Positions 8,773-31,514 of a DNA stretch of 46,131 bases are shown one piece after another. The first letter of the stretch is position 1. Every line of letters starts with the position of its first letter. The notes beneath the pieces were generated by a model, which was given only the letters and a program-made list of their open reading frames with translations, was not told the origin of the DNA and searched no databases. A program made the translations under genes and the position numbers. This DNA is from a virus: IMG/VR virus record IMGVR_UViG_3300021420_000058, positions 1-46,131 of that record; one strand, 5' to 3'.

Positions 8773-9334
8773 CCCGCGTCATCATATGGTCCTGCACATT
8801 TGGAATCGGCAACAGCGGTTTGCCGATATCGCGCAGTGCGCCCGCGTGGTAGCACCCCCACGGTACGTCCGGTACCAGGTCGTTACCGTTTTTGCACAGC
8901 CACATCGGCACGCCTGCCAGTAGTGTTTGCACCGAAGTGTCGGAACTTACGCGCGGGGGTTCGAAGCCATAAACCGCGATTGGTGGTTTGCCAGCCGCAG
9001 TCATCATAGCCGCAGCCGTGATCGCGATAGCGGCGCCCAGCGAGTGGCCGACCAGCGTTACCGGCTGATCGCCGATCGTATCAAGCACCTTTGCCGAAAT
9101 CGCAAGCCACGCATTCCAGAAGCCTTCGTGCACGTGGCCGATGCCGTCCACGGGGATCATGACGGCGTCCAGATCCGCGATCCACGACGCCAGATTGTTC
9201 GTGCCGGGAAACGCGATGCACAAACCATCTGGCGTCGTGCGCACGATCGCGCGCGAAGCCGTGTCCTCCTCCCCGATATCCGGATCAGCGGAGTAGGCTT
9301 CGTTCGCAATCAGGGCGTAATCGTACGGCGTCAT
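8750..9334 (-). CDS. class 3 lipase-like alpha/beta hydrolase
   Basis: 194 residues. The oxyanion segment is FPGTNNLASWIADLDA; the nucleophile elbow is VGHSLGAA with Ser98; the probable acid is Asp152 (NGNDLVPDVP) and the probable base His183 (VQDHMM). The triad spacing agrees with lipase_3 enzymes. No signal peptide is present. It is the last gene of the late operon, directly behind holin, endolysin and a lipoprotein gene and overlapping the latter by four bases, so a role in completing lysis by attacking envelope lipids is a reasonable inference, in the manner of LysB esterases of mycobacteriophages, though not related in sequence as far as can be seen. Confidence 0.85.
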   Translation of the reverse strand: MTPYDYALIANEAYSADPDIGEEDTASRAIVRTTPDGLCIAFPGTNNLASWIADLDAVMIPVDGIGHVHEGFWNAWLAISAKVLDTIGDQPVTLVGHSLGAAIAITAAAMMTAAGKPPIAVYGFEPPRVSSDTSVQTLLAGVPMWLCKNGNDLVPDVPWGCYHAGALRDIGKPLLPIPNVQDHMMTRVIQALAQ

Positions 9335-9627
9335 TTTGCTGCGGGAGCGCTTGCGGCCTGCGCAGCTACCGCCGCACTGGCTGCGCTTGTCGCCACATCA
9401 GCGGTGGCGCATACAACGCCGTTCACAGCAGCCGCAGCCGCTACGTCCGGGCTCGCCGCACTGGCAGCGGTGAGCGTCGGCTGAACGATCTTGCAGCCGT
9501 TGCTGATCGTTTGCAGCGCGATCAGGTTCGTCTGGTTCAGGTTCTGCAACGTGGTGTTGAGGTTAGCCTGCTGGGCCGACGAGCATGCGCCAAGTGCGAG
9601 CACGGAGAGAATAAGAATGCGTTTCAT
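9331..9627 (-). CDS. Ala-rich lipoprotein in lysis cassette
   Basis: 98 residues with a clear lipoprotein signal: MKRILILSVLALGAC, where LALGAC is a lipobox with the modified Cys at residue 15. The mature part is Asn/Gln/Thr rich and then Ala rich, with two more cysteines (Cys45 and Cys73) that could pair in the periplasm. It lies between holin and lipase. It could be the outer-membrane half of a spanin pair, but no inner-membrane partner is encoded in the usual overlapping position, so this remains a guess; another possibility is an envelope-modifying accessory protein. Confidence 0.75.
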   Translation of the reverse strand: MKRILILSVLALGACSSAQQANLNTTLQNLNQTNLIALQTISNGCKIVQPTLTAASAASPDVAAAAAVNGVVCATADVATSAASAAVAAQAASAPAAK

Positions 9628-16288: not shown

Positions 16289-17155
16289 TCAGTACCCCGT
16301 ATATCCAGTCGAACTCAGACCGTAAGTTGGATCGCTCGTCACGTTGCTGCTAAAGCCATATGGATTGGACGAACTGGTAGAGCCAAATCCGTAGTCATCA
16401 ACGCCTGAGGTCGTGTTGGGAGTGCTGTTGAACGCACCGCTGTTGTACAGATTCTGTCCGGCAGTCGCCAAACCGCTGATCCCGTTCGAAATCGAACTGG
16501 CAGTATTCGCATTGCCGGCGGCGAGAAGCTGGCCTGCGGCCACAGGGGAGCCCGTCAGGAGCCCCGACAACTGGCCCATCTGCGTAAAGGCTTGCTGTTG
16601 CGCGCTGAGGTTCGTGCCAACTGCGTTCTGCATCTGGCCGTAGCCCTGCTGGTTGCCCGCAAGCGACTGACCGTACAGGCCGGACAGTTGCGACAACTGC
16701 TGAGCGTAAGCGCTCTGCCCGAAAGACTGGCCGTAATTCTGAAGCGCGGCAAGCTGGTTGCCGGACGCGTTCAAGCCTTGCGCGGCCAACGTGGCGTTGA
16801 CGGCGTTCTGCCCCTGGCCGAAAGCGGCCTGGTATTGCGGAGTCTGGTAGACGCTGCTGGGGTTTGCGACAAGGTTGTTGATCTGACTCGCGAATCCCTG
16901 ACCGTTGAGCGCGTTTCCAAGGCCTACGCCTTGTCCAGCCAGTCCGCCAAGCGACGGCGCGCCCCCGTACTGGACGTTGCCGTAGGTGCCGCCCGGTTGC
17001 GCCTGCTGGTTAAGCGTGTTCGCAAATCCCGGCTGGTAAGGCGTGAATGGACTTGCAGTGCCTGCCGCACCCTGATTGCCGGACGAACCAGAATTCGCGA
17101 CGGATTCACCCGCCCCGACTACCGCTGCGCCCGCGCTGATCCATGCTGCCGGCAT
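16289..17155 (-). CDS. ejection-type internal virion protein (288 aa)
   Basis: The N-terminus is hydrophobic and small-residue rich (WISAGAAVVGAGESVANSGS); the rest is dominated by Gln, Gly, Ala, Asn and Tyr (QSFGQSAYAQQLSQLSGLYG), ending in a Ser/Gly/Tyr-rich tail. Similar composition is seen in T7 gp14-type and P22 ejection proteins. Its ATG at 17155 lies inside the cupin gene (overlap 37 bases). It stands directly before the transglycosylase gene, so a joint role in DNA ejection is likely. Confidence 0.72.
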   Translation of the reverse strand: MPAAWISAGAAVVGAGESVANSGSSGNQGAAGTASPFTPYQPGFANTLNQQAQPGGTYGNVQYGGAPSLGGLAGQGVGLGNALNGQGFASQINNLVANPSSVYQTPQYQAAFGQGQNAVNATLAAQGLNASGNQLAALQNYGQSFGQSAYAQQLSQLSGLYGQSLAGNQQGYGQMQNAVGTNLSAQQQAFTQMGQLSGLLTGSPVAAGQLLAAGNANTASSISNGISGLATAGQNLYNSGAFNSTPNTTSGVDDYGFGSTSSSNPYGFSSNVTSDPTYGLSSTGYTGY

Positions 17156-17502
17156 GTCATACCCCTTTTTTCGATCAGCACTTCGTCAATGCCTTCGGTT
17201 TCCGCCGTGCCATGCACGCAGAACCAGACGATATCGGTAAGCGCCGTAATCCTGTGTTCGACTCCGGCGGGAACGATAATCACGTCGCCGCCTGAATATT
17301 CTTCGGTGTCTTCACCGATTTCCGCACGCACACGTCCGCTGCACAGGATGCTGTAGTGCTCGAATTTGTGTTTGTGGGAGCCGATCAGGTAGCCGGCGGG
17401 GGCTTTCATCCGGCGCATATAGACCGGATTGCCTTCTGTAGGGAAATAGTGTACCACGCCTAGCGCGGCGTCTATCACGTCCTGCGGAAGCTGTACAGTC
17501 AC
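17119..17502 (-). CDS. cupin-fold metal-binding protein (127 aa)
   Basis: Cupin motif 1 is GSHKHKFEHYSILCSGRVRAEIG (His43, His45, Glu48/His49), motif 2 is GGDVIIVPAGVEHRI (His83). These residues would hold one metal ion. A short N-terminal segment (GVVHYFPTEGNPVYMRRM) precedes the barrel. It is overlapped by the hydroxylase gene (four bases, ATGA) and overlaps the ejection-protein start. No enzymatic specificity can be deduced; in this context it may act together with the neighbouring oxygenase or be a small structural barrel. Confidence 0.78.
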   Translation of the reverse strand: MTVQLPQDVIDAALGVVHYFPTEGNPVYMRRMKAPAGYLIGSHKHKFEHYSILCSGRVRAEIGEDTEEYSGGDVIIVPAGVEHRITALTDIVWFCVHGTAETEGIDEVLIEKRGMTCRQHGSARAQR

Positions 17503-18077
17503 CGTTTGTACCTCCGCTCGTAGTCATGCACGCGAAGGCACACGCACATAACTATATACGAAATATCACTATTGTTCACAACAGAATGGTTTTCCGTATT
17601 CACGAAGCGATGCACGTCGCCCGGTCGATCTTCCATCCGCTCGTCTTCGTAGACGAAAGACGCGCCAGGGGCTGACTGGATGCAGATGTTGAACTTGTCG
17701 TAGTAGTTGACGTGCCAGCCAAAATCTTTGTGCGGATAGATCTGATGGCCGGGCTTCACGCGCCAGATGAATATCCCGCCAATCCTCTCCGCCTCCACGC
17801 GTCGCGCAAGGTCGAACACCAGGGGGCGAATCGCGGGCAGCGCGTACGCAGCCGGATACCAGATCGAATCGTGCTCGTCGTTGAACGTCTTCCAGTCACC
17901 TGACTTCAGCCATTCCGTCTTGTCGTTATACCGCACCCATATGTCGTCACTGTCGTGGTGGGGGCCGGCAGGCCCGAGCCGTTCCGTATCCACGTTCCAC
18001 AACTCCGGATGCTGATGCAACTGGAGCGCGAGCGGCGTCACGTCCACGCCCTGCGCAATTTTCATGAAGTTCTTCAA
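17499..18077 (-). CDS. aspartyl/asparaginyl beta-hydroxylase-like 2-oxoglutarate oxygenase (192 aa)
   Basis: The iron ligands appear as His116-x-Asp118 in VKPGHQIYPHKDFGWH and His164 in TENHSVVN; Arg182 (VCLRVHD) is well placed to bind 2-oxoglutarate. The PGxxIxPHxD arrangement is that of the Asp/Asn beta-hydroxylase fold. The expected reaction is Fe(II)- and 2-oxoglutarate-dependent hydroxylation of a protein or peptide side chain. It is encoded between the gp10-like tail gene and a cupin, overlapping both by four bases, so a virion protein is a plausible substrate. Substrate is inferred, not visible. Confidence 0.82.
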   Translation of the reverse strand: MKNFMKIAQGVDVTPLALQLHQHPELWNVDTERLGPAGPHHDSDDIWVRYNDKTEWLKSGDWKTFNDEHDSIWYPAAYALPAIRPLVFDLARRVEAERIGGIFIWRVKPGHQIYPHKDFGWHVNYYDKFNICIQSAPGASFVYEDERMEDRPGDVHRFVNTENHSVVNNSDISYIVMCVCLRVHDYERRYKR

Positions 18078-19744
18078 AGCGTACCCTCTTGCATATCCGG
18101 AAGTTCGATCTGGTAGAAGCGCACCTGGAACCCGCCGATGTACAGGACGGAGAATGCACGCCGCCGCGCCGCCGCTCCACGCCGTAGAAGCGATCGGTCC
18201 GAACCGAGATTGACCGGACGGAAAGCACCGAAGCTGGCGAAATCGCTGTCAGAATACCCTACATATGCCGTGTCCTGCACCTTGTCCGCAATCACCTCGA
18301 TCGTCGGGTAGAACTTTTCCTTGTTCGAACCGAAGTCTCCGGCATTCGTGCGCAACAGGCCGTAAATGAACTGCCCGTTGTCGTTCGACACGCCTTGCTG
18401 CATCTGGTAGGTGATGCCATTGGTCGAATCCAGCAGGTAATCTGTGTTGTTGCCGAAAGCGTAAAACGAAGGCGAAAACGCATTCTGCACGTAAGGCGTG
18501 ATGGCCAGATTGCCCAACCCCGTCTGGTTGCTCGCGCTCGCCGTCTCCGCATCGATCGAGAAGGTATTGATCGTATTGCTGTTGATGCCCCCTACGTCGC
18601 CTCCGGGTACCGTCGTGTAGCTTAGCTGGTTTGGTCCAAGGATGGTCGCGACAAACGTACCGACAAACACGGCGCTGGAATTCATACTCGTAACCCGGAT
18701 TACGGTCGGGTTGCTCAAAGCGTTGGTCGGCATGTTGACCGTCACAACGGTCCCGCTATACGTCGCGCTGATTGCGTTTATCGGCGTGCCGAGCGCGGTA
18801 CTTGACCAGCGGTGCCACGATTGCGTCACGACGTTGTAGACCAGCGTGCAGTTGCTTGCGCCCAGTGTCAGGACGTAGAGCGCGGCGCCGTTGATCTCGA
18901 TATAGTAGGCGTAGACGCTGGTCAGCGGATCACTGTTCAGCACCTTTTCAATGAACTCATCCGAAATCGGCTGAGGCGTCAGGCCGTTCATGATGTAGAC
19001 TTTCCGGCCCTTCTGATGGGTCTGCCCGACCCAGAATATCGTATTCTCAGTCGCAACCAGTGAGGTGCCTGCTGCACAGCCAATGTTCACGGTGGCTGAG
19101 ATGTTTGGCAGCAAAGGCGATCCCGGCGGCGTGTTGCCGGCGTCCAGGAAGAACGTTGTTGAGAACTGGCCGAAGCTCGCCACGTAGTTGAACAGCCGGC
19201 AAACCTGCGCGCCCGGATCGGGAGACAGGCTCCCGTTGATCGCGTTCAAAGCGTTCCACGTGGCCGGCGTGTTCAGGTTGCTATTCGTGAGAATGCCGCC
19301 GGGAGTCAGAACGAAGACGTACCCATCCAGCCACGCTACGCCCGGAACCGTGGTTGCGGGATAGTTAGGATCATTCACAGCCGTGAGAACCGTTCCGTTC
19401 CACGTGTATGCCTTGGCGTTATTCTTCAGGAATACAGCCGTACCCCCCTGACCCGTGAGCGTGAACTGGTACTGACTTGTTCCGTCCACTGCGCCAGTCG
19501 CGACACCGTTTACATAGAATTCCGTGCCGATGATCGACAGGACCTGCGTGCCGAACGTGAACAGCCCAAGACCTGCCGCAGCGGTCGTCGTGTAGACCGG
19601 CTGCACGCCGAAGCGCCGTTCGCAGAACGTGCGGCCATCCGAGTTTTTCGACGCGTAATAGTTGTACATGATGGCGTCGTACACCATCGTGGGGTCTCGC
19701 GTCGAGATCGTCTGCGCAAGCTGGATGCGGGGAGCTTCAGCCAT
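18074..19744 (-). CDS. P22 gp10-like packaged DNA stabilisation / tail hub protein (556 aa)
   Basis: Repeated four-stranded beta motifs typical of a propeller: FGTQVLSIIGTEFYVNG, NNAKAYTWNGT, GVAWLDGYVFVLTPGG, TENTIFWVGQ, and NVVTQSWHRWSSTA. Length and position, directly after the gp4-like gene, match P22 gp10, which plugs the portal-tail junction after packaging. An insertion-like region (residues about 320-400, rich in Thr, Val and Asn) is not obvious in P22 gp10. Overlaps both neighbours. Confidence 0.75.
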   Translation of the reverse strand: MAEAPRIQLAQTISTRDPTMVYDAIMYNYYASKNSDGRTFCERRFGVQPVYTTTAAAGLGLFTFGTQVLSIIGTEFYVNGVATGAVDGTSQYQFTLTGQGGTAVFLKNNAKAYTWNGTVLTAVNDPNYPATTVPGVAWLDGYVFVLTPGGILTNSNLNTPATWNALNAINGSLSPDPGAQVCRLFNYVASFGQFSTTFFLDAGNTPPGSPLLPNISATVNIGCAAGTSLVATENTIFWVGQTHQKGRKVYIMNGLTPQPISDEFIEKVLNSDPLTSVYAYYIEINGAALYVLTLGASNCTLVYNVVTQSWHRWSSTALGTPINAISATYSGTVVTVNMPTNALSNPTVIRVTSMNSSAVFVGTFVATILGPNQLSYTTVPGGDVGGINSNTINTFSIDAETASASNQTGLGNLAITPYVQNAFSPSFYAFGNNTDYLLDSTNGITYQMQQGVSNDNGQFIYGLLRTNAGDFGSNKEKFYPTIEVIADKVQDTAYVGYSDSDFASFGAFRPVNLGSDRSLLRRGAAARRRAFSVLYIGGFQVRFYQIELPDMQEGTL

Positions 19745-20484
19745 CAGTAGCTACTCCGGCCCTGTCCCCGACGATCAGGCGTAAAGAAGGTCGAGGCCTC
19801 CTCCTGATCCCAGTTCAGCATGTCTTCCAGGTACCGGTTCGCGTTCCGCTCCACGCGAGCCGCGACTGATTCCGGCACGAAGTACTCCGGTAGCAACTGT
19901 TCGGCCAAACCCCACTTGAGTGCGTTCAGCCACTCGATCGGGAAGTCGAAACTCGCGGTCGAGTTGATCACGTCCGCGATGGGCCGTTGGCAGGTCAGAA
20001 TCACGATGTTCGGATTCGCATCCGGAGCCAGATACAGGCTCAGAACGCCGTTGTTCAGCTGCGGATCGTAGTAGTAGCTGTTCGGCGTACCCTGATCGGT
20101 CTTCTGGCCCATCATGTCGTATTCCTGACGCGACAACTGGATCAGCGGAACCTGAAGCGGGAAGTTACTGGCCGGCGTCGCGTACTGAAGTCGCGCCATC
20201 GGGATGCGCAAGACGCGATATGCCTGCAACCCCGGCGTCGGCGAGCCGGGGCCGATCAGGTACTGTACCTGCCCCTGGACGACCGTGAACGACAGATCCG
20301 TCACGCACCAGAGCGGATAATTCTTGCTCATCCAGTACTTGATCATCAGGTTCAACGCCTGCGCCGCATTCGCCAGATCCGTCGGCGGAGGCGGCGTGTC
20401 GTCGTTGAACTGGCCGATCAGGCGAAATGCTGCCTGAATCAGGGTTTGCTGATTGATCGAGAAGGTATAAGTCTGTGCTGGCAT
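19744..20484 (-). CDS. P22 gp4-like tail accessory / head-tail connector (246 aa)
   Basis: Begins with an N-terminal helical region (QTLIQAAFRLIGQF, LANAAQALNLMIKYW) followed by a beta-rich part (VTDLSFTVVQGQVQYLIG) and a C-terminal helical segment (EWLNALKWGLAEQLLPEYFV), the pattern of phage gp4/stopper-type connector proteins that bind beneath the portal. It precedes the gp10-like gene by a one-base overlap, as in P22-type genomes. No catalytic residues. Confidence 0.75.
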   Translation of the reverse strand: MPAQTYTFSINQQTLIQAAFRLIGQFNDDTPPPPTDLANAAQALNLMIKYWMSKNYPLWCVTDLSFTVVQGQVQYLIGPGSPTPGLQAYRVLRIPMARLQYATPASNFPLQVPLIQLSRQEYDMMGQKTDQGTPNSYYYDPQLNNGVLSLYLAPDANPNIVILTCQRPIADVINSTASFDFPIEWLNALKWGLAEQLLPEYFVPESVAARVERNANRYLEDMLNWDQEEASTFFTPDRRGQGRSSY

Positions 20485-21278
20485 TAACGGGCCCTCCGGG
20501 CCTGGAGTATGGCCGCTACGGCGCAGCCCCCGCCGCCAGTAAATGATGCTTCTGCGCTAAGGTAGATCGTCGTAGTCGCGGAGACGTTTATTCTCTGCGC
20601 AGGGGCAACAAGATTTGCTGCCCCGTTCAGACCGTAAGCCCCGTTCAGATTTTGCTGGGCGAGTAGGCCGGTCGTATACACAGGAATGTTGTTATTGACT
20701 GTGCTTACCCCCGCGAGGACTGCAGTGAGGGTCTGACTGCCATTCGGGGCGAAATAGACGTTTCCGGTTACGTTCCAGTCGCCAGCGGTGAGCGAAAGCG
20801 AAATAACAGAAGACGCAACACCGTTGGCAAGCGCGCCGGCGGGTTGCAGGCTGGACAGGTACTCGCCGATACTTCCGGCATTGGCGTTATCACCGAGCGT
20901 TGTACCGATAATACCGAGCGTGGTTGAGGGGGTGATAGCCGAAGTTGGAAATAGCCCTTCTGCGGCATTCTCCCAGCCCTGCATCTCCAGACGGATGGCG
21001 CGTTGCGACACAATGTCACCTGCCGCCCACGAGCGAGCGGTAGTCCCGTCCTGTCCCCGAACGATCGAGAAGATATTCCCTGAAACCGCCGTAACCTGAA
21101 CAATCTCGATCAGGGTCTGCGTGGCGGCGTCCGTGAGGGTCACGTAGAACGATTGCGGCGGCGTCGGGGCCGGAAACAGCGCGGCCTGACCCGCGTTCAG
21201 GGTCAAGGAGGTCTGGCTGTTAGTGATCCCTACAGCCAGGGTGCCTGCAGCGTTGTTTGCGTACAGAAGGTTCGCCAT
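20484..21278 (-). CDS. tail protein with shared C-terminal GDW domain, no signal peptide (264 aa)
   Basis: Residues 1-95 form a beta-rich N-terminal domain (NSQTSLTLNAGQAALFP, QSFYVTLTDAATQTLIEIVQVTAV, FSIVRGQDGTTARSWAAGD) seen in many phage tail and fibre proteins. Residues about 120-264 are the domain shared with the proteins at 21287 and 22798: LGIIGTTLGDNANAGSIGEYL, SLSLTAGDWNVTGNVYF, and VSATTTIYLSAEASFTGGGG. Probably a fibre or fibre-tip component attached next to the gp4-like connector. It overlaps the gp4-like gene by one base. Confidence 0.75.
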   Translation of the reverse strand: MANLLYANNAAGTLAVGITNSQTSLTLNAGQAALFPAPTPPQSFYVTLTDAATQTLIEIVQVTAVSGNIFSIVRGQDGTTARSWAAGDIVSQRAIRLEMQGWENAAEGLFPTSAITPSTTLGIIGTTLGDNANAGSIGEYLSSLQPAGALANGVASSVISLSLTAGDWNVTGNVYFAPNGSQTLTAVLAGVSTVNNNIPVYTTGLLAQQNLNGAYGLNGAANLVAPAQRINVSATTTIYLSAEASFTGGGGCAVAAILQARRAR

Positions 21279-21286
21279 TTACGTTC

Positions 21287-22525
21287 TCAGTGGTATCTCA
21301 ACGCTGTAATGTAGCCGTTGCACGTCATTGTACTGGTTCCGAAAGTTGAGTTACCTACCACATAGATAGTCGTCGTGCTAGCCAGATTCTCAACGACGGG
21401 AACCGTGGAGATCGCCTGCGCCTGGCCGGTCGTCAAGGTCGCTACGATGTTAGTCTGGTTAGGCGCCCCCGGAAGCGTGGCCGAAGTCGTAGAAACACCC
21501 GCGTAAATAGACGAAACAGTCGTAGAACCCGCTGGATTGAACTGAACAGTTCCCCACACCAGCCAGTCGCCAGCCCCCAGCGACAAACTGGTGCAATTAG
21601 CGGTCGCGCCTGTAGTCATTGCGGTGCCGGCAGTACTTGTGCCGGTGGTCTGTCCCTGAATGCCTGCCGGCGCCGCAGCGCCTGGGGTAACCCCCGCCGT
21701 TCCGACAGCGCTGAAAATCTCGCCGTTCGCAGATACCGTGAAAACCGGTGTAGACTCGCTACCGTTCGCATTCACGTTGATGGCATTCGTCCAGCCGGCC
21801 CCGGCGGCGGATTGAATAAGAAGACCAGTCCCCAATGTGCCGGTGGCCGCAGTGGCCGTGAAGCCCTGCGAACCCGCTGTTCCAGTTAGCCCGGTCTCAA
21901 TTGACCCGAGTTGAATATCCATACTGTTTAACACGGTCCCGGTCGTCGCCTGAAACTGGTTTGTGACGCCTTCCAGAAGGCCCATGAAACCTGCCACACC
22001 GCCAACGTTAACTAGAATGCCGTCAGTATCGTCCTGCCCTTGCCGGGTGACGATGGAAAGACCGTCCATTTCCCCGAGCGTTGCACTGGTCAGGAAATTG
22101 CTCTTGATCGCCGACAGATACATCCCGTAATCGGCATTCAGCGGACCGTTGGCCCCGCTACCGGTCACGGTCGATGCGATCGAGAAAGCCGAGTTCGAAG
22201 TTCCGCTATGGCTACCGTTGTTCGTATGCGTGACCGTGTGATCAGAATAATCAGTCGCCTGCCCCGGGAACATGATGATGTTCTGGTTCGCCGCGAGAAC
22301 ATCCGACTCCACCGCGATTGTCCCGGAAAGCGTAGTGAAAGCGCCTGCGTTCGGCGTCGTTCCGCCGATTGCCCCCGGCGTCGCCAGATACGCAGTCACG
22401 AAATTGGTGAATCCGATACCGCTAACCGTGCCGAGCGCGGTCAGATTCTGGTACGTCGGACTCGGATAGCTCTGCGCGAAAGCGGTCGAGCTAACCAGTA
22501 GAAGCAGAGCGATTATTTTTTTCAT
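21287..22525 (-). CDS. fibre-like protein with Sec signal peptide and GDW domain (412 aa)
   Basis: The N-terminus MKKIIALLLLVSSTAFA is a textbook Sec signal with an Ala-Phe-Ala cleavage site before QSYPSP. The mature part contains one fibre repeat (GAIGGTTPNAGAFTTLSGT), a central region reminiscent of phage stalk proteins (NADYGMYLSAIKSNFLTS, TRQGQDDTDGILVNVGG), and the C-terminal shared domain (TSLSLGAGDWLVWGTVQF, LASTTTIYVVGNSTFG). It lies in the tail-gene cluster yet should be exported from the cytoplasm, which is unusual for a virion part. The ATG overlaps the stop of the preceding gene by four bases. Confidence 0.8.
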   Translation of the reverse strand: MKKIIALLLLVSSTAFAQSYPSPTYQNLTALGTVSGIGFTNFVTAYLATPGAIGGTTPNAGAFTTLSGTIAVESDVLAANQNIIMFPGQATDYSDHTVTHTNNGSHSGTSNSAFSIASTVTGSGANGPLNADYGMYLSAIKSNFLTSATLGEMDGLSIVTRQGQDDTDGILVNVGGVAGFMGLLEGVTNQFQATTGTVLNSMDIQLGSIETGLTGTAGSQGFTATAATGTLGTGLLIQSAAGAGWTNAINVNANGSESTPVFTVSANGEIFSAVGTAGVTPGAAAPAGIQGQTTGTSTAGTAMTTGATANCTSLSLGAGDWLVWGTVQFNPAGSTTVSSIYAGVSTTSATLPGAPNQTNIVATLTTGQAQAISTVPVVENLASTTTIYVVGNSTFGTSTMTCNGYITALRYH

Positions 22526-22788
22526 GATTGTGCGAGTGTGCCGCCGTTATTCCACAAAATCCCGGACGTACCCGGACGTACCGTAGGCAGCGAATTGAAC
22601 CACGCTAGCATCAGGGCGCCGAACGTGGCGGCAGGGATATTGGAGCCGATCGCTACGCCCAGTTGCGCGACGGTGTACTGCGCCAGCGTGGGCAGCAAGG
22701 AAGGACCGACAAGCTGGTAGCCGACAATCTTGTCCGTAGCCGCGATTGGCAGCGTAGGAACAGGGAACTGGCCAAAATTGAGAGACAT
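22522..22788 (-). CDS. small fibre-associated protein (88 aa)
   Basis: Begins MSLNFGQFPVPTLPIAATDKIVGYQLVG and ends GTSGILWNNGGTLAQS. Pattern of small tail-fibre-type proteins: a short DKIVGYQ segment and a terminal GILWNNGGTL strand. Encoded between the two signal-peptide fibre proteins and overlapping the second by four bases. It may be a linker or base of a fibre. No known catalytic motif. Confidence 0.65.
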   Translation of the reverse strand: MSLNFGQFPVPTLPIAATDKIVGYQLVGPSLLPTLAQYTVAQLGVAIGSNIPAATFGALMLAWFNSLPTVRPGTSGILWNNGGTLAQS

Positions 22789-22797
22789 TATTTCCTC

Positions 22798-24642
22798 TTA
22801 TCGGACGCGACGTGCACGGATACGCCCATCAGCGGTTGCCGTACTTACTGTGAAGTTGCAATCTCCGACCAGAAATACCGTGGTCGTAGACGAGATGCTG
22901 ATACGTTGTACCGGCGCGATAAGAGAAACAGGGTTCGAAGTTGCCTGCGTCGATTCTATTACCGCCCTGTCCGGACTTGCGTTTAAGGTGGCCGAAGTTA
23001 CACCCGCCGACGCCAGTGCCGACTGAATCACCGTACTGGCTGCGGCGTTGAACTGCACGTTTCCGGTTACGTCCCAGTCGCCCGCCGTCAGGCTGATACT
23101 GGTGATATTCGCGGGGGTATTCGATGTCAGGGATACTGCTGAAGCCGTAGCCGTGACGAATTCGCCGATGCTTCCTGCATTCGCGCTATCGTTCGTCGTC
23201 GTTCCGACAATACCGTTCGTACTGGACGGTGTGATAGCGCCAGTCGCAGATACAGTCGTGAAGTGCCCCGCCGCCGGTGTTGTGCCGCCAACCACCGCGC
23301 CGTCAATTGTGCCGCCGGTAATCGTCGGGTTATTCCCGAACAGCGGATTCGCGCCCGTAGAGCCGAGCAACATCTGGCCGCTTGTGCCTGCCGCCGTAGC
23401 GGATACTGCCGAGGTCCCTTCGCCGAGCAACACACCGTGGACTGTCAGACTCGCCACGCCAATACCGCCGCTTGACACAGGCAGGGGGGTTGTTGCGGAA
23501 AGCGTCGTGAACGCGCCAGTGCTAGGTGTCGTCGCACCAATCGTCGTGTTGTTGATCGTGCCGCCGGTAATTACCGGGTTAGTGGACGAAATCGCGCCGA
23601 TACCCGCTGGCGTATCAATCGGCCATACATTCGTTTCGCCGTCCGTCTGCAACAGAACAGACGTGGAATTGCTCGTGCCCTGAGGCAGCAGATAGCCACT
23701 CCCGGTCGTACCGTCCGCACCGTTACTGAGAAAGACCGTAACGGTAAATGCGCCGGTTGTGTTGTTGGCGAAAGACGGTCGGCGCGAAGCCGTGTCATAC
23801 GTCCCGTTTGCAATGATGAAGGTGACATTGCTGGTTAGCGCGCCAGTCAGAATGACGTTTCGATCTCCCGGAGGGATCACGGACGCCATTACCTGTGCGC
23901 CATTGCTGTAGCCCGTACCGCCGTAAAGAACAGTTGCGGATGTCACCCCGCCGCCCGATACCGACGCAACGCGCAACGTCGCGTCCACGTTGCCGCCGGC
24001 CAGGGTGACGAGATCTCCGACCGCGTATCCGGAACCGGCACTTGCGATCGTCAGGATCGAGCCGATAACGCCGCCCGAAGCGAACACAACCGGCGAGAAG
24101 CCGCTGCCCAGCGTCGCCTGATTGTACGTGCCGCCGGCAAGCGTCAGCGGAACCGTCGTGGTCGAGCGGATAATCTGCTGATTCGTGAACGCGTCCGTCG
24201 CGATTAACGTCGAATTATCGTTCGTAGACTGCGTGGTCGCACTCGCTGCGCCACTGAACGAGGTTGTGCCCGTTGAGGTAAGGGTTGTGAAGGCGCCAGT
24301 ACTGGGCGTCGTCGCACCAATAGCAGAACTGTTGATCGTTGACCCTGTGATCGTCGCGCCGGTGATTACGGGACCGATAATTGAGGTAGGACCGTTGAGG
24401 GTGGCCGAACCATTAAAAACGGCACTGCCGTTCACGGTCAGGGTGTTTAGAGTCGTGCTTCCCGTCACCGTCAGGCCGGTGAACGTGACCGGAGACGTAC
24501 CGCCGCTGATGGGGATGAACTGGTTGAACGCGCCGTTCAGCGCCTGCGCGGTCAGGATTTGATTCGGAACGAAAGGAACGAACTGCGCCTGCGCTCCGAT
24601 CGAGAGCGCGAGCATGAGCAGCGCGAGAAGAATTTTTTTCAA
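22798..24642 (-). CDS. long fibre-like protein with Sec signal peptide, fibre repeats and GDW domain (614 aa)
   Basis: Signal peptide MKKILLALLMLALSIGAQA, cleavage after Ala-Gln-Ala. Three fibre repeats of the type IGATTPSTGAFTTL occur near residues 110, 370 and 460; between them is a beta-rich region with GSGYAVGDLVTLAGGNVDATL and VILTGALTSNVTFIIANGTYD. Residues about 475-614 are the shared C-terminal domain (NGIVGTTTNDSANAGSIGEF, SISLTAGDWDVTGNVQF, SSTTTVFLVGDCNFTV). The architecture is that of a trimeric tail fibre, but the signal peptide predicts export. It overlaps the zinc-finger protein gene upstream by four bases. Confidence 0.82.
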   Translation of the reverse strand: MKKILLALLMLALSIGAQAQFVPFVPNQILTAQALNGAFNQFIPISGGTSPVTFTGLTVTGSTTLNTLTVNGSAVFNGSATLNGPTSIIGPVITGATITGSTINSSAIGATTPSTGAFTTLTSTGTTSFSGAASATTQSTNDNSTLIATDAFTNQQIIRSTTTVPLTLAGGTYNQATLGSGFSPVVFASGGVIGSILTIASAGSGYAVGDLVTLAGGNVDATLRVASVSGGGVTSATVLYGGTGYSNGAQVMASVIPPGDRNVILTGALTSNVTFIIANGTYDTASRRPSFANNTTGAFTVTVFLSNGADGTTGSGYLLPQGTSNSTSVLLQTDGETNVWPIDTPAGIGAISSTNPVITGGTINNTTIGATTPSTGAFTTLSATTPLPVSSGGIGVASLTVHGVLLGEGTSAVSATAAGTSGQMLLGSTGANPLFGNNPTITGGTIDGAVVGGTTPAAGHFTTVSATGAITPSSTNGIVGTTTNDSANAGSIGEFVTATASAVSLTSNTPANITSISLTAGDWDVTGNVQFNAAASTVIQSALASAGVTSATLNASPDRAVIESTQATSNPVSLIAPVQRISISSTTTVFLVGDCNFTVSTATADGRIRARRVR

Positions 24643-25118
24643 GCCAACTCCGATTCGTTCAGTACAAACCCTTCCACGTCCGTATTGTTGAGCCGCGATC
24701 CGGGCGTGGCGTAGAAGTACGGCTCTACGATCTGCATGTCTTGCAGTTGCAACTCGCCACCAATCTGCTGATTGTCGATCGACGCCAGTTCGCCGCCCGC
24801 AGGCATCACCGTGGTCGTGAAGGCGACCATGATATTGTTGTTGAAGTCTATCATGTAGTTACCGAAGAAATCGGTAACCGCAAGGAACAGCGGATTGGTC
24901 GGGATGAAGGGTGGCGCGACATCGGGGCGCGACCACGGGATGGCTTGCGGGTCTGGAATACCGCGCACGAAGTCTTGCGGTTGGCGGACATTCCAGTCCT
25001 GCCGGCAGCACATCAGTCCGTCCCAGCGTTCTTTCAGGTCGCCGGAATGGTACTTCATTCCGCAGATGTCGCAGATTACGTCAAACTGGCCTTTCTTGTA
25101 GAAATCTGCGCGGCCCAT
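24639..25118 (-). CDS. conserved phage protein with N-terminal zinc ribbon (159 aa)
   Basis: Residues 16-42 hold CDICGMKYHSGDLKERWDGLMCC followed by RQDWNVRQPQDFVRG, a conserved phage signature in which CxxC and CC probably bind zinc. The C-terminal 90 residues are beta-rich (MIDFNNNIMVAFTTTVMPAG, GGELQLQDMQIVEPYFY). Proteins with this header are frequent in head/tail clusters of tailed phages and are probably minor virion or assembly proteins. The start follows AAGGAGGCGCC. Confidence 0.75.
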   Translation of the reverse strand: MGRADFYKKGQFDVICDICGMKYHSGDLKERWDGLMCCRQDWNVRQPQDFVRGIPDPQAIPWSRPDVAPPFIPTNPLFLAVTDFFGNYMIDFNNNIMVAFTTTVMPAGGELASIDNQQIGGELQLQDMQIVEPYFYATPGSRLNNTDVEGFVLNESELA

Positions 25119-30951: not shown

Positions 30952-31204
30952 TGTTTTCCTCGATCGGCGAATACTTGCGTTCGAAAACGTCCTTCGGGTT
31001 GACGTACTTGTAGCCGTCTTCCTGAATCACGATGTAGTCATCGATCACCGGCGCGTAACGGGAAAGCATGCTCGCGTCCAGTTCGTGCCAGTTGTTATCT
31101 TCCGTAAGGACCAGCATTACGCCTTTCTCGTTGATCTCACTGGCGTTGCAAATTCGGCTAGCGTTGACGCGGACCGGCTTTGCGATATGGGTAAAGTCAG
31201 TCAT
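30944..31204 (-). CDS. conserved small phage protein (86 aa)
   Basis: MTDFTHIAKPVRVNASRICN, then VMLVLTEDNNWHELDASMLS and YIVIQEDGYKYVNPKDVFER. Compact alpha/beta pattern, soluble. It lies between the GroES-like and scaffold genes and overlaps both by eight bases. Its tight coupling to the co-chaperonin gene suggests a part in capsid assembly. Not assigned to a named family. Confidence 0.65.
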   Translation of the reverse strand: MTDFTHIAKPVRVNASRICNASEINEKGVMLVLTEDNNWHELDASMLSRYAPVIDDYIVIQEDGYKYVNPKDVFERKYSPIEENNV

Positions 31205-31514
31205 GGTTCACCTCCAGCCCGACCACGTCCAGGTCGTTCAGGATGCGGTACTTCTTGCCGTCAATGCCGTCCCACAACAGGCCCGCGTACTTGCCGTAGA
31301 CGATCTTGTCGCCCGGTTTGGCCCAGTCGCCGGTGGGCGTATCCTTCCAGCAGCCGTCACCCACGGCGATCAGCGTGCCTTTAACCTGCGCCATCTCTTC
31401 GCGGCCTGTCGTCTCCATCGCCAGTACGATACCGCTGGCCGTTTTCTTCTCGACTGCCTCCGGCAAGATCAGCAGCCGGTGGCCGAGTGGCAAAAATCCA
31501 GACGTGTTTTGCAT
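31197..31514 (-). CDS. GroES-like co-chaperonin
   Basis: 105 residues, near the length of bacterial GroES. PLGHRLLILPE matches the GroES N-terminal strand; KTASGIVL is the mobile loop ending in Ile-Val-Leu that docks on GroEL; VKGTLIAVGDGC, WAKPGDKIVYGKYAG, IDGKKYRILNDLDVVGL complete the family pattern. It should cap the host GroEL to fold a phage protein, most likely the capsid protein, as T4 gp31 does. ATG follows GGAGAAAGAGTAA, directly after the previous gene, and the gene lies just upstream of scaffold and capsid genes. Confidence 0.9.
   Translation of the reverse strand: MQNTSGFLPLGHRLLILPEAVEKKTASGIVLAMETTGREEMAQVKGTLIAVGDGCWKDTPTGDWAKPGDKIVYGKYAGLLWDGIDGKKYRILNDLDVVGLEVNHD

Follow-up and report, generated by a model that had tools for sequence, protein, structure and literature searches.

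The DNA considered here is the IMG/VR virus record IMGVR_UViG_3300021420_000058 (positions 1 to 46,131; this whole stretch of 46,131 nucleotides is hereafter the window), which encodes three fiber-like proteins of 264, 412 and 614 amino acids (aa) with a common C-terminal tip domain. The 264-aa protein has a recognizable virion anchor at its N-terminus, whereas predicted Sec signal peptides stand at the start of the 412- and 614-aa proteins. Together with their relatives, the latter two probably represent a widespread and hitherto undescribed class of Sec-exported, disulfide-stabilized fiber or spike proteins that would work outside the virion, in which a signal peptide has taken the place of the anchor on otherwise ordinary fiber bodies and the tips are rapidly exchanged. 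As to what the 412- and 614-type proteins do, the evidence tips slightly toward late-made, Sec-exported and disulfide-stabilized fiber or spike proteins that are released at lysis and act on surface glycans.

An earlier note on this DNA had proposed a C-terminal domain common to the three proteins, and BLASTP comparisons of their C-terminal parts bore this out, with about 145 residues being homologous: 264 versus 412 aa gave an e-value of 1e-11 (34% over 157 residues), 264 versus 614 aa 3e-25 (41% over 155) and 412 versus 614 aa 2e-19 (40% over 154). With the 614-aa protein as query, a search of the entire contig recovered exactly the two others, and chance resemblance of the three C-termini was rejected by the e-values and the profiles. 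The NAGSIGE motif that the note had listed as shared is absent from the 412-aa protein, which has AGIQGQ at this place, and occurs in the other two. In all three proteins the domain corresponds to PHROG 11393 ('tail fiber protein'), and it matches the C-terminus of the solved tail fiber gp47 (8vbx) with a profile e-value of 1e-26 and also in phmmer. It further occurs behind non-exported N-termini in the fibers of Klebsiella phage KpV74, Bcep176 and Mulvp2. The likeness to PHROG 11393 fibers such as 8vbx gp47 and that of KpV74 is one of a homologous C-terminal domain; their N-termini are non-secretory, whereas the 412- and 614-aa proteins each start with a signal peptide and lack a recognized anchor.

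The structure prediction of this common domain for which the earlier note had called was run with AlphaFold2 on the domain of the 412-aa protein (57-sequence alignment), and gave a model of nine strands with a predicted local distance difference test (pLDDT) score mostly above 94. The tip is thereby confidently predicted to adopt a C1q/TNF-like jelly roll. Its structural matches (Z-scores of 8–10 over 100–121 residues) include the cyanophage A4 tail protein (Z 9.9), the short fiber domain of cyanophage A-1(L) (Z 9.1) and the bacterial lectins BC2L-C (Z 8.7; range of 8.5–8.7 for the BC2L-C N-terminal domain and PLTL). The likeness to these lectins is one of predicted fold and not of sequence, and sugar binding by the tips is putative; none of the window's own three tips matches Pfam C1q.

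The N-termini set the three proteins apart. That of the 264-aa protein matches residues 1–108 of the 'putative tail fiber protein' 8jov (e-value 1.7e-6) and is conserved as MANxLYANNAAGTL in 8 relatives, and its C-terminus matches 8vbx gp47; as judged from these matches, it is an ordinary virion tail fiber. The anchor assignment rests on the 8jov sequence match, because AlphaFold2 modeled the N-terminus of the full fiber poorly (pLDDT 27–44). Neither the 412- nor the 614-aa protein has a recognized anchor of this kind or a Pfam match above the cut-off. The signal peptides that the note had read at their starts are of the Sec type according to a simple, home-made rule (n-, h- and c-regions followed by AxA) and their conservation in relatives. 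Among the 33 window genes scored, these two ranked highest (14.7 for the 412-aa and 14.5 for the 614-aa protein), followed by a lipoprotein-like open reading frame (ORF) at 12.8 and a weak match in a fourth ORF at 5.4. The predicted cuts fall after TAFA in the 412-aa and after AQA in the 614-aa protein, in both cases before Q. Given that the rule also flags 9% of unselected ORFs, a call on a single sequence is weak alone, and it is conservation across relatives that carries the prediction. A wrong start codon or a spurious signal peptide was rejected by this conservation and by translational coupling: the TTG start of the 614-aa gene (24642) overlaps the preceding stop and has GGAG upstream, and the ATGA at the start of the 412-aa gene (22525) shares bases with the stop codon of the 88-aa ORF, so that both starts are coupled to the preceding ORFs.

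A predicted signal peptide stands ahead of three recurrent N-terminal modules in 68 of 72, 34 of 34 and 45 of 45 distinct viral proteins, the last of these counts (FTPGQ module) being biased upward because the scan pattern held the residue after the cleavage site. A scan with an internal shaft peptide, which is blind to the N-terminus and free of this bias, retrieved 79 distinct proteins whose N-terminal region was intact, and the rule flagged 75 of them. The other four were judged signal-bearing when read by eye: one has a GTG start (L313), one a plain signal peptide that was missed (L377), one a signal peptide further downstream (L356), and one is less certain (L354). The three modules begin at, or a few residues from, the predicted cleavage site. 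Thus, export-directed fiber-like proteins are supported by these comparisons as a recurrent class that is not peculiar to a single contig. In the profile-searched loci the tip domain is carried by exported and by non-exported proteins in roughly comparable numbers, and the named bacterial hosts of exported-type loci in genomes are mainly Paraburkholderia and Cupriavidus. Among cultured phages, BcepC6B gp19 and Xanthomonas phage PBR31 orf35 combine a signal peptide with the same C-terminal domain, and both sit between a spike or fiber gene and a holin; they differ from the window proteins in their first module (PIQLLNPAGSTSGQ) and in being single copy. The paper on PBR31 does not discuss the signal peptide of orf35 (PMC10975493), and our search of the open-licence PubMed Central (PMC) literature on exported tail fibers, receptor decoys, secretomes, BcepC6B and PBR31 found no description of the class. 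As in the window, an exported fiber gene of the YPSPTF type and one of the FTPGQ type occur together on a contig in L108 (3446–6398), and these two types share a contig repeatedly (L240/L303, L241/L305 and L242/L304).

Folding in the periplasm allows disulfides to form, so that a protein exported there is expected to have its cysteines in pairs; for a fiber assembled in the cytoplasm no such pairing is required. Counted after clustering of the proteins, even numbers of cysteines prevail over odd ones in exported clusters (82 versus 24, p=1e-8), in contrast to non-exported clusters (11 versus 21). A two-cysteine module, CSxxxSALxYTxGTGFxC, is present in 56 of 111 exported clusters and in 0 of 49 non-exported ones, and within the common tip alone at least two cysteines are found in 55 of 93 exported versus 9 of 64 non-exported cases. 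In 31 pairs of nearest exported and non-exported tips on the tree, the cysteine pair was confined to the exported member in 10 and to the other in 1 (p=0.012). Cysteine positions recur in exported tips, namely (70,134), (56,147) and (68,153), whereas those of non-exported tips are singletons that never recur. The 412-aa protein has exactly two cysteines, C311 and C402, and this pair recurs in 15 exported domains. These patterns support real passage through an oxidizing compartment, with predicted disulfides. They also bear on the view that the proteins are not secreted and that their hydrophobic N-terminus is an uncleaved element for virion assembly. While compatible with the sequence taken alone, this is extremely unlikely, given that in more than 100 proteins an AxA-type site coincides with the module border or lies a few residues from it, and that the cysteine parity differs from that of non-exported fibers, which also end up outside the cell. 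The export of 412- and 614-type proteins is well supported as a prediction.

Signal peptide and non-secretory N-terminus appear to be interchangeable addresses. In three relatives (L036, L040 and L041) the 614-type shaft (53–64%) and tip (50–59%) follow an N-terminus like the 88-aa ORF and lacking a signal peptide, and in three others (L120, L131 and L219) the first module stands directly after the start codon; therefore, the same body is apparently made with either address. The sister phage L034, whose gp4-like and gp10-like proteins are 99.6% and 91% identical to those of the window, has retained the two signal peptides as well as most of the 614-type shaft, but all three tips have been exchanged. 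Its tips include a C1q-like form with the two-cysteine module and a right-handed beta-helix (Pfam PF13229), and its anchored fiber has a collar-like end that falls below the Pfam cut-off. Across the exported class the bodies take pectate-lyase-like, glycine-rich and C1q forms. On the tip tree the exported/non-exported label changes 34 times, versus 45–59 times with shuffled labels, suggesting that tips are partly sorted by address and yet change it often. Such tip exchange is the behavior of receptor-binding and glycan-cutting proteins. Among 194 relatives, the three window tips rank only 30th to 170th to one another. As they are not closest relatives, recent gene duplication within the phage was rejected, and the three seem to represent independent specificities within a single fold.

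This ranking qualifies the proposal of the earlier note that two of the proteins may be exported decoys with the tip of the virion fiber. Two of the three are indeed export-directed and belong to a recurrent class. That they bind the very receptor of the same phage's virion fiber would accord with the presence of one domain family in both, and phage T5 provides an exported receptor blocker in Llp (PMC9586334). However, with tips of one genome so distant from each other and independently exchanged in L034, we consider such a same-tip decoy unlikely.

All three genes belong to a P22-like podovirus structural operon on the minus strand, with terminase, portal, scaffold, coat, a gp10-like head-closure protein and a transglycosylase-type internal protein. 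The stretch from the coat gene to the gp4-like gene includes the 159-, 614-, 88-, 412- and 264-aa reading frames, which overlap or lie no more than about 10 bases apart, and a sequence scan of the coding strand in the fiber gene region found no promoter-like site and no convincing terminator. This position suggests late expression. It also argues against an adhesin of lysogenic conversion, exported from the prophage to alter the lysogen's surface or attachment: domain loci in Paraburkholderia and Cupriavidus genomes are as expected of prophages, but with both window genes inside the operon, overlapping at starts and stops and without a promoter of their own, and with no visible route across the outer membrane, we regard it as very unlikely. 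The 412- and 614-aa proteins have no lipobox (the cleavage regions lack a cysteine), and no barrel or other outer-membrane route is visible among Pfam matches above the cut-off. The surface coat offered by the earlier note as a further role consequently found no support; since the C-terminus is moreover a free tip, release at lysis is the simpler account.

The main rival is a virion fiber that attaches late, i.e. one that is exported, oxidized in the periplasm and joined to the virion after lysis, perhaps via the 88-aa module or the upstream spike. The 88-aa ORF of the window is indeed an N-terminal module that relatives have fused to the same body, exported-fiber genes come after spike or fiber genes, and isolates annotate such proteins as tail fiber or structural protein. 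Nevertheless, we give this explanation a minor chance of being correct, because the exported proteins lack the anchor present in the 264-aa fiber and virions assemble in the cytoplasm; we also know of no precedent for it. The genes found around those for exported fibers are spikes and fibers upstream, and fibers, holins and endolysins downstream. A work site outside the virion must be weighed against these upstream neighbors, which a virion role predicts equally well. Also weighing against our interpretation are the permissiveness of the home-made signal-peptide rule and the inflation of the cysteine counts by shared ancestry, the well-supported branches of the tree giving just 3 contrasts, too few for a test. 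Furthermore, with only one cysteine in the 614-aa protein, the disulfide argument rests on the relatives and the 412-aa protein.

For exported proteins working apart from the virion, the following course is envisaged. A Sec signal peptide would replace the virion anchor on a fiber or spike body; the 412- and 614-aa proteins would be translated late, within the structural operon, exported to the periplasm and cut by signal peptidase. Disulfide bonds would close most members of the class, and the C1q/TNF-like tip would mediate trimerization, other members carrying a beta-helix, glycine-rich or C1q tip. Lack of an anchor, the structural operon and periplasmic export together suggest a soluble pool that would be freed with the progeny at lysis. 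Its most likely job would be on surface glycans of host debris and neighboring cells, where receptors may be occupied or cut, sparing progeny from loss on debris, and surface polysaccharide may be loosened. We infer actual export, cleavage, trimerization, timing and, above all, function from the patterns described above.

Parts of this scheme have parallels. Free tail-spike depolymerases resemble those class members in which a beta-helix or pectate-lyase-like body follows the signal peptide, but to our knowledge the free spikes described so far are virion spikes that were released without being assembled, and are not Sec-exported. Superinfection-exclusion proteins reportedly keep phages from adsorbing non-productively to fragments of lysed cells, and T5 Llp, as a phage-encoded exported protein presumed to stop such adsorption, is a precedent for this general purpose (PMC9586334). 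Llp is a small lipoprotein made early, whereas the 412- and 614-aa proteins are large, fiber-like, devoid of a lipobox and encoded in a late-type structural operon.

Table 1. Positions in the window of the fiber-like proteins, their predicted parts and adjoining genes
Feature	Position	Strand	Basis or remark
264-aa virion-type fiber (N-terminal anchor and C1q/TNF-like tip, without signal peptide)	20484..21278	-	8jov and 8vbx matches; PHROG 6427/8469/11393
Virion-anchor domain of 264-aa fiber, residues 1-110	20949..21278	-	match to 8jov 1-108, 18 chains
Tip domain of 264-aa fiber, residues 117-264	20487..20930	-	profile match, BLASTP
412-aa predicted exported fiber-like protein (signal peptide, YPSPTYQNLT module, shaft, C1q/TNF-like tip)	21287..22525	-	
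Predicted signal peptide MKKIIALLLLVSSTAFA (before Q), 412-aa protein	22475..22525	-	rule; module with signal peptide in 34/34 distinct proteins
Tip domain of 412-aa protein, residues 272-412	21290..21712	-	holds C311 (21593-21595) and C402 (21320-21322)
88-aa ORF, stand-alone N-terminal module MSLNFGQFPxPxLP	22522..22788	-	fused in frame to 614-type shaft and tip in relatives
614-aa predicted exported fiber-like protein (TTG start; signal peptide, FVPNQILTAQALN module, shaft, C1q/TNF-like tip)	22798..24642	-	
Predicted signal peptide MKKILLALLMLALSIGAQA (before Q), 614-aa protein	24586..24642	-	rule; conserved in L001 and L034
Tip domain of 614-aa protein, residues 472-614	22801..23229	-	BLASTP, profile match
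159-aa ORF directly upstream, overlaps 614-aa start (co-translated context)	24639..25118	-	97% identical in L001
P22 gp10-like head-closure protein (structural operon context)	18074..19744	-	PHROG 578 head closure Hc3, e-value 9e-40

The window has no close DNA relatives among isolates in megablast and no plasmid match. Adjoining the head-closure gene, within the structural operon, are genes for an aspartyl/asparaginyl beta-hydroxylase-like protein (PF05118; 17499–18077, minus strand) and then a cupin protein (17119–17502, minus strand), which are 94–97% conserved in L034. A phage-coded GroES-like co-chaperonin (PF00166, e-value 9e-12; 31197–31514, minus strand) lies between the portal and scaffold genes, and ct2os315 has a similar gene ahead of its coat gene. 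Between the coat gene and the fiber region is an Endonuclease VII/HNH-type gene (PF02945; 26730–27431, minus strand). Elsewhere on the same strand, a small putative lipoprotein (MKRILILSVLALGAC; 9331–9627) overlaps the start of a class 3 lipase-like gene (PF01764; 8750–9334), and an ATP-grasp protein resembling phosphoribosylglycinamide synthetase (PF01071; 10788–12149) is unusual for a phage of this size.

Genes of the exported-fiber type are routinely annotated as tail fibers, and would as such count as receptor-binding proteins in host-range prediction. The cysteine test offers a means of recognizing exported fiber-like proteins from sequence alone. If the proposed interpretation is true, well over a hundred distinct proteins encountered in this study would be either non-virion proteins or post-assembly ones, and lysis would be the moment at which phages deploy soluble receptor binders along with glycan enzymes.

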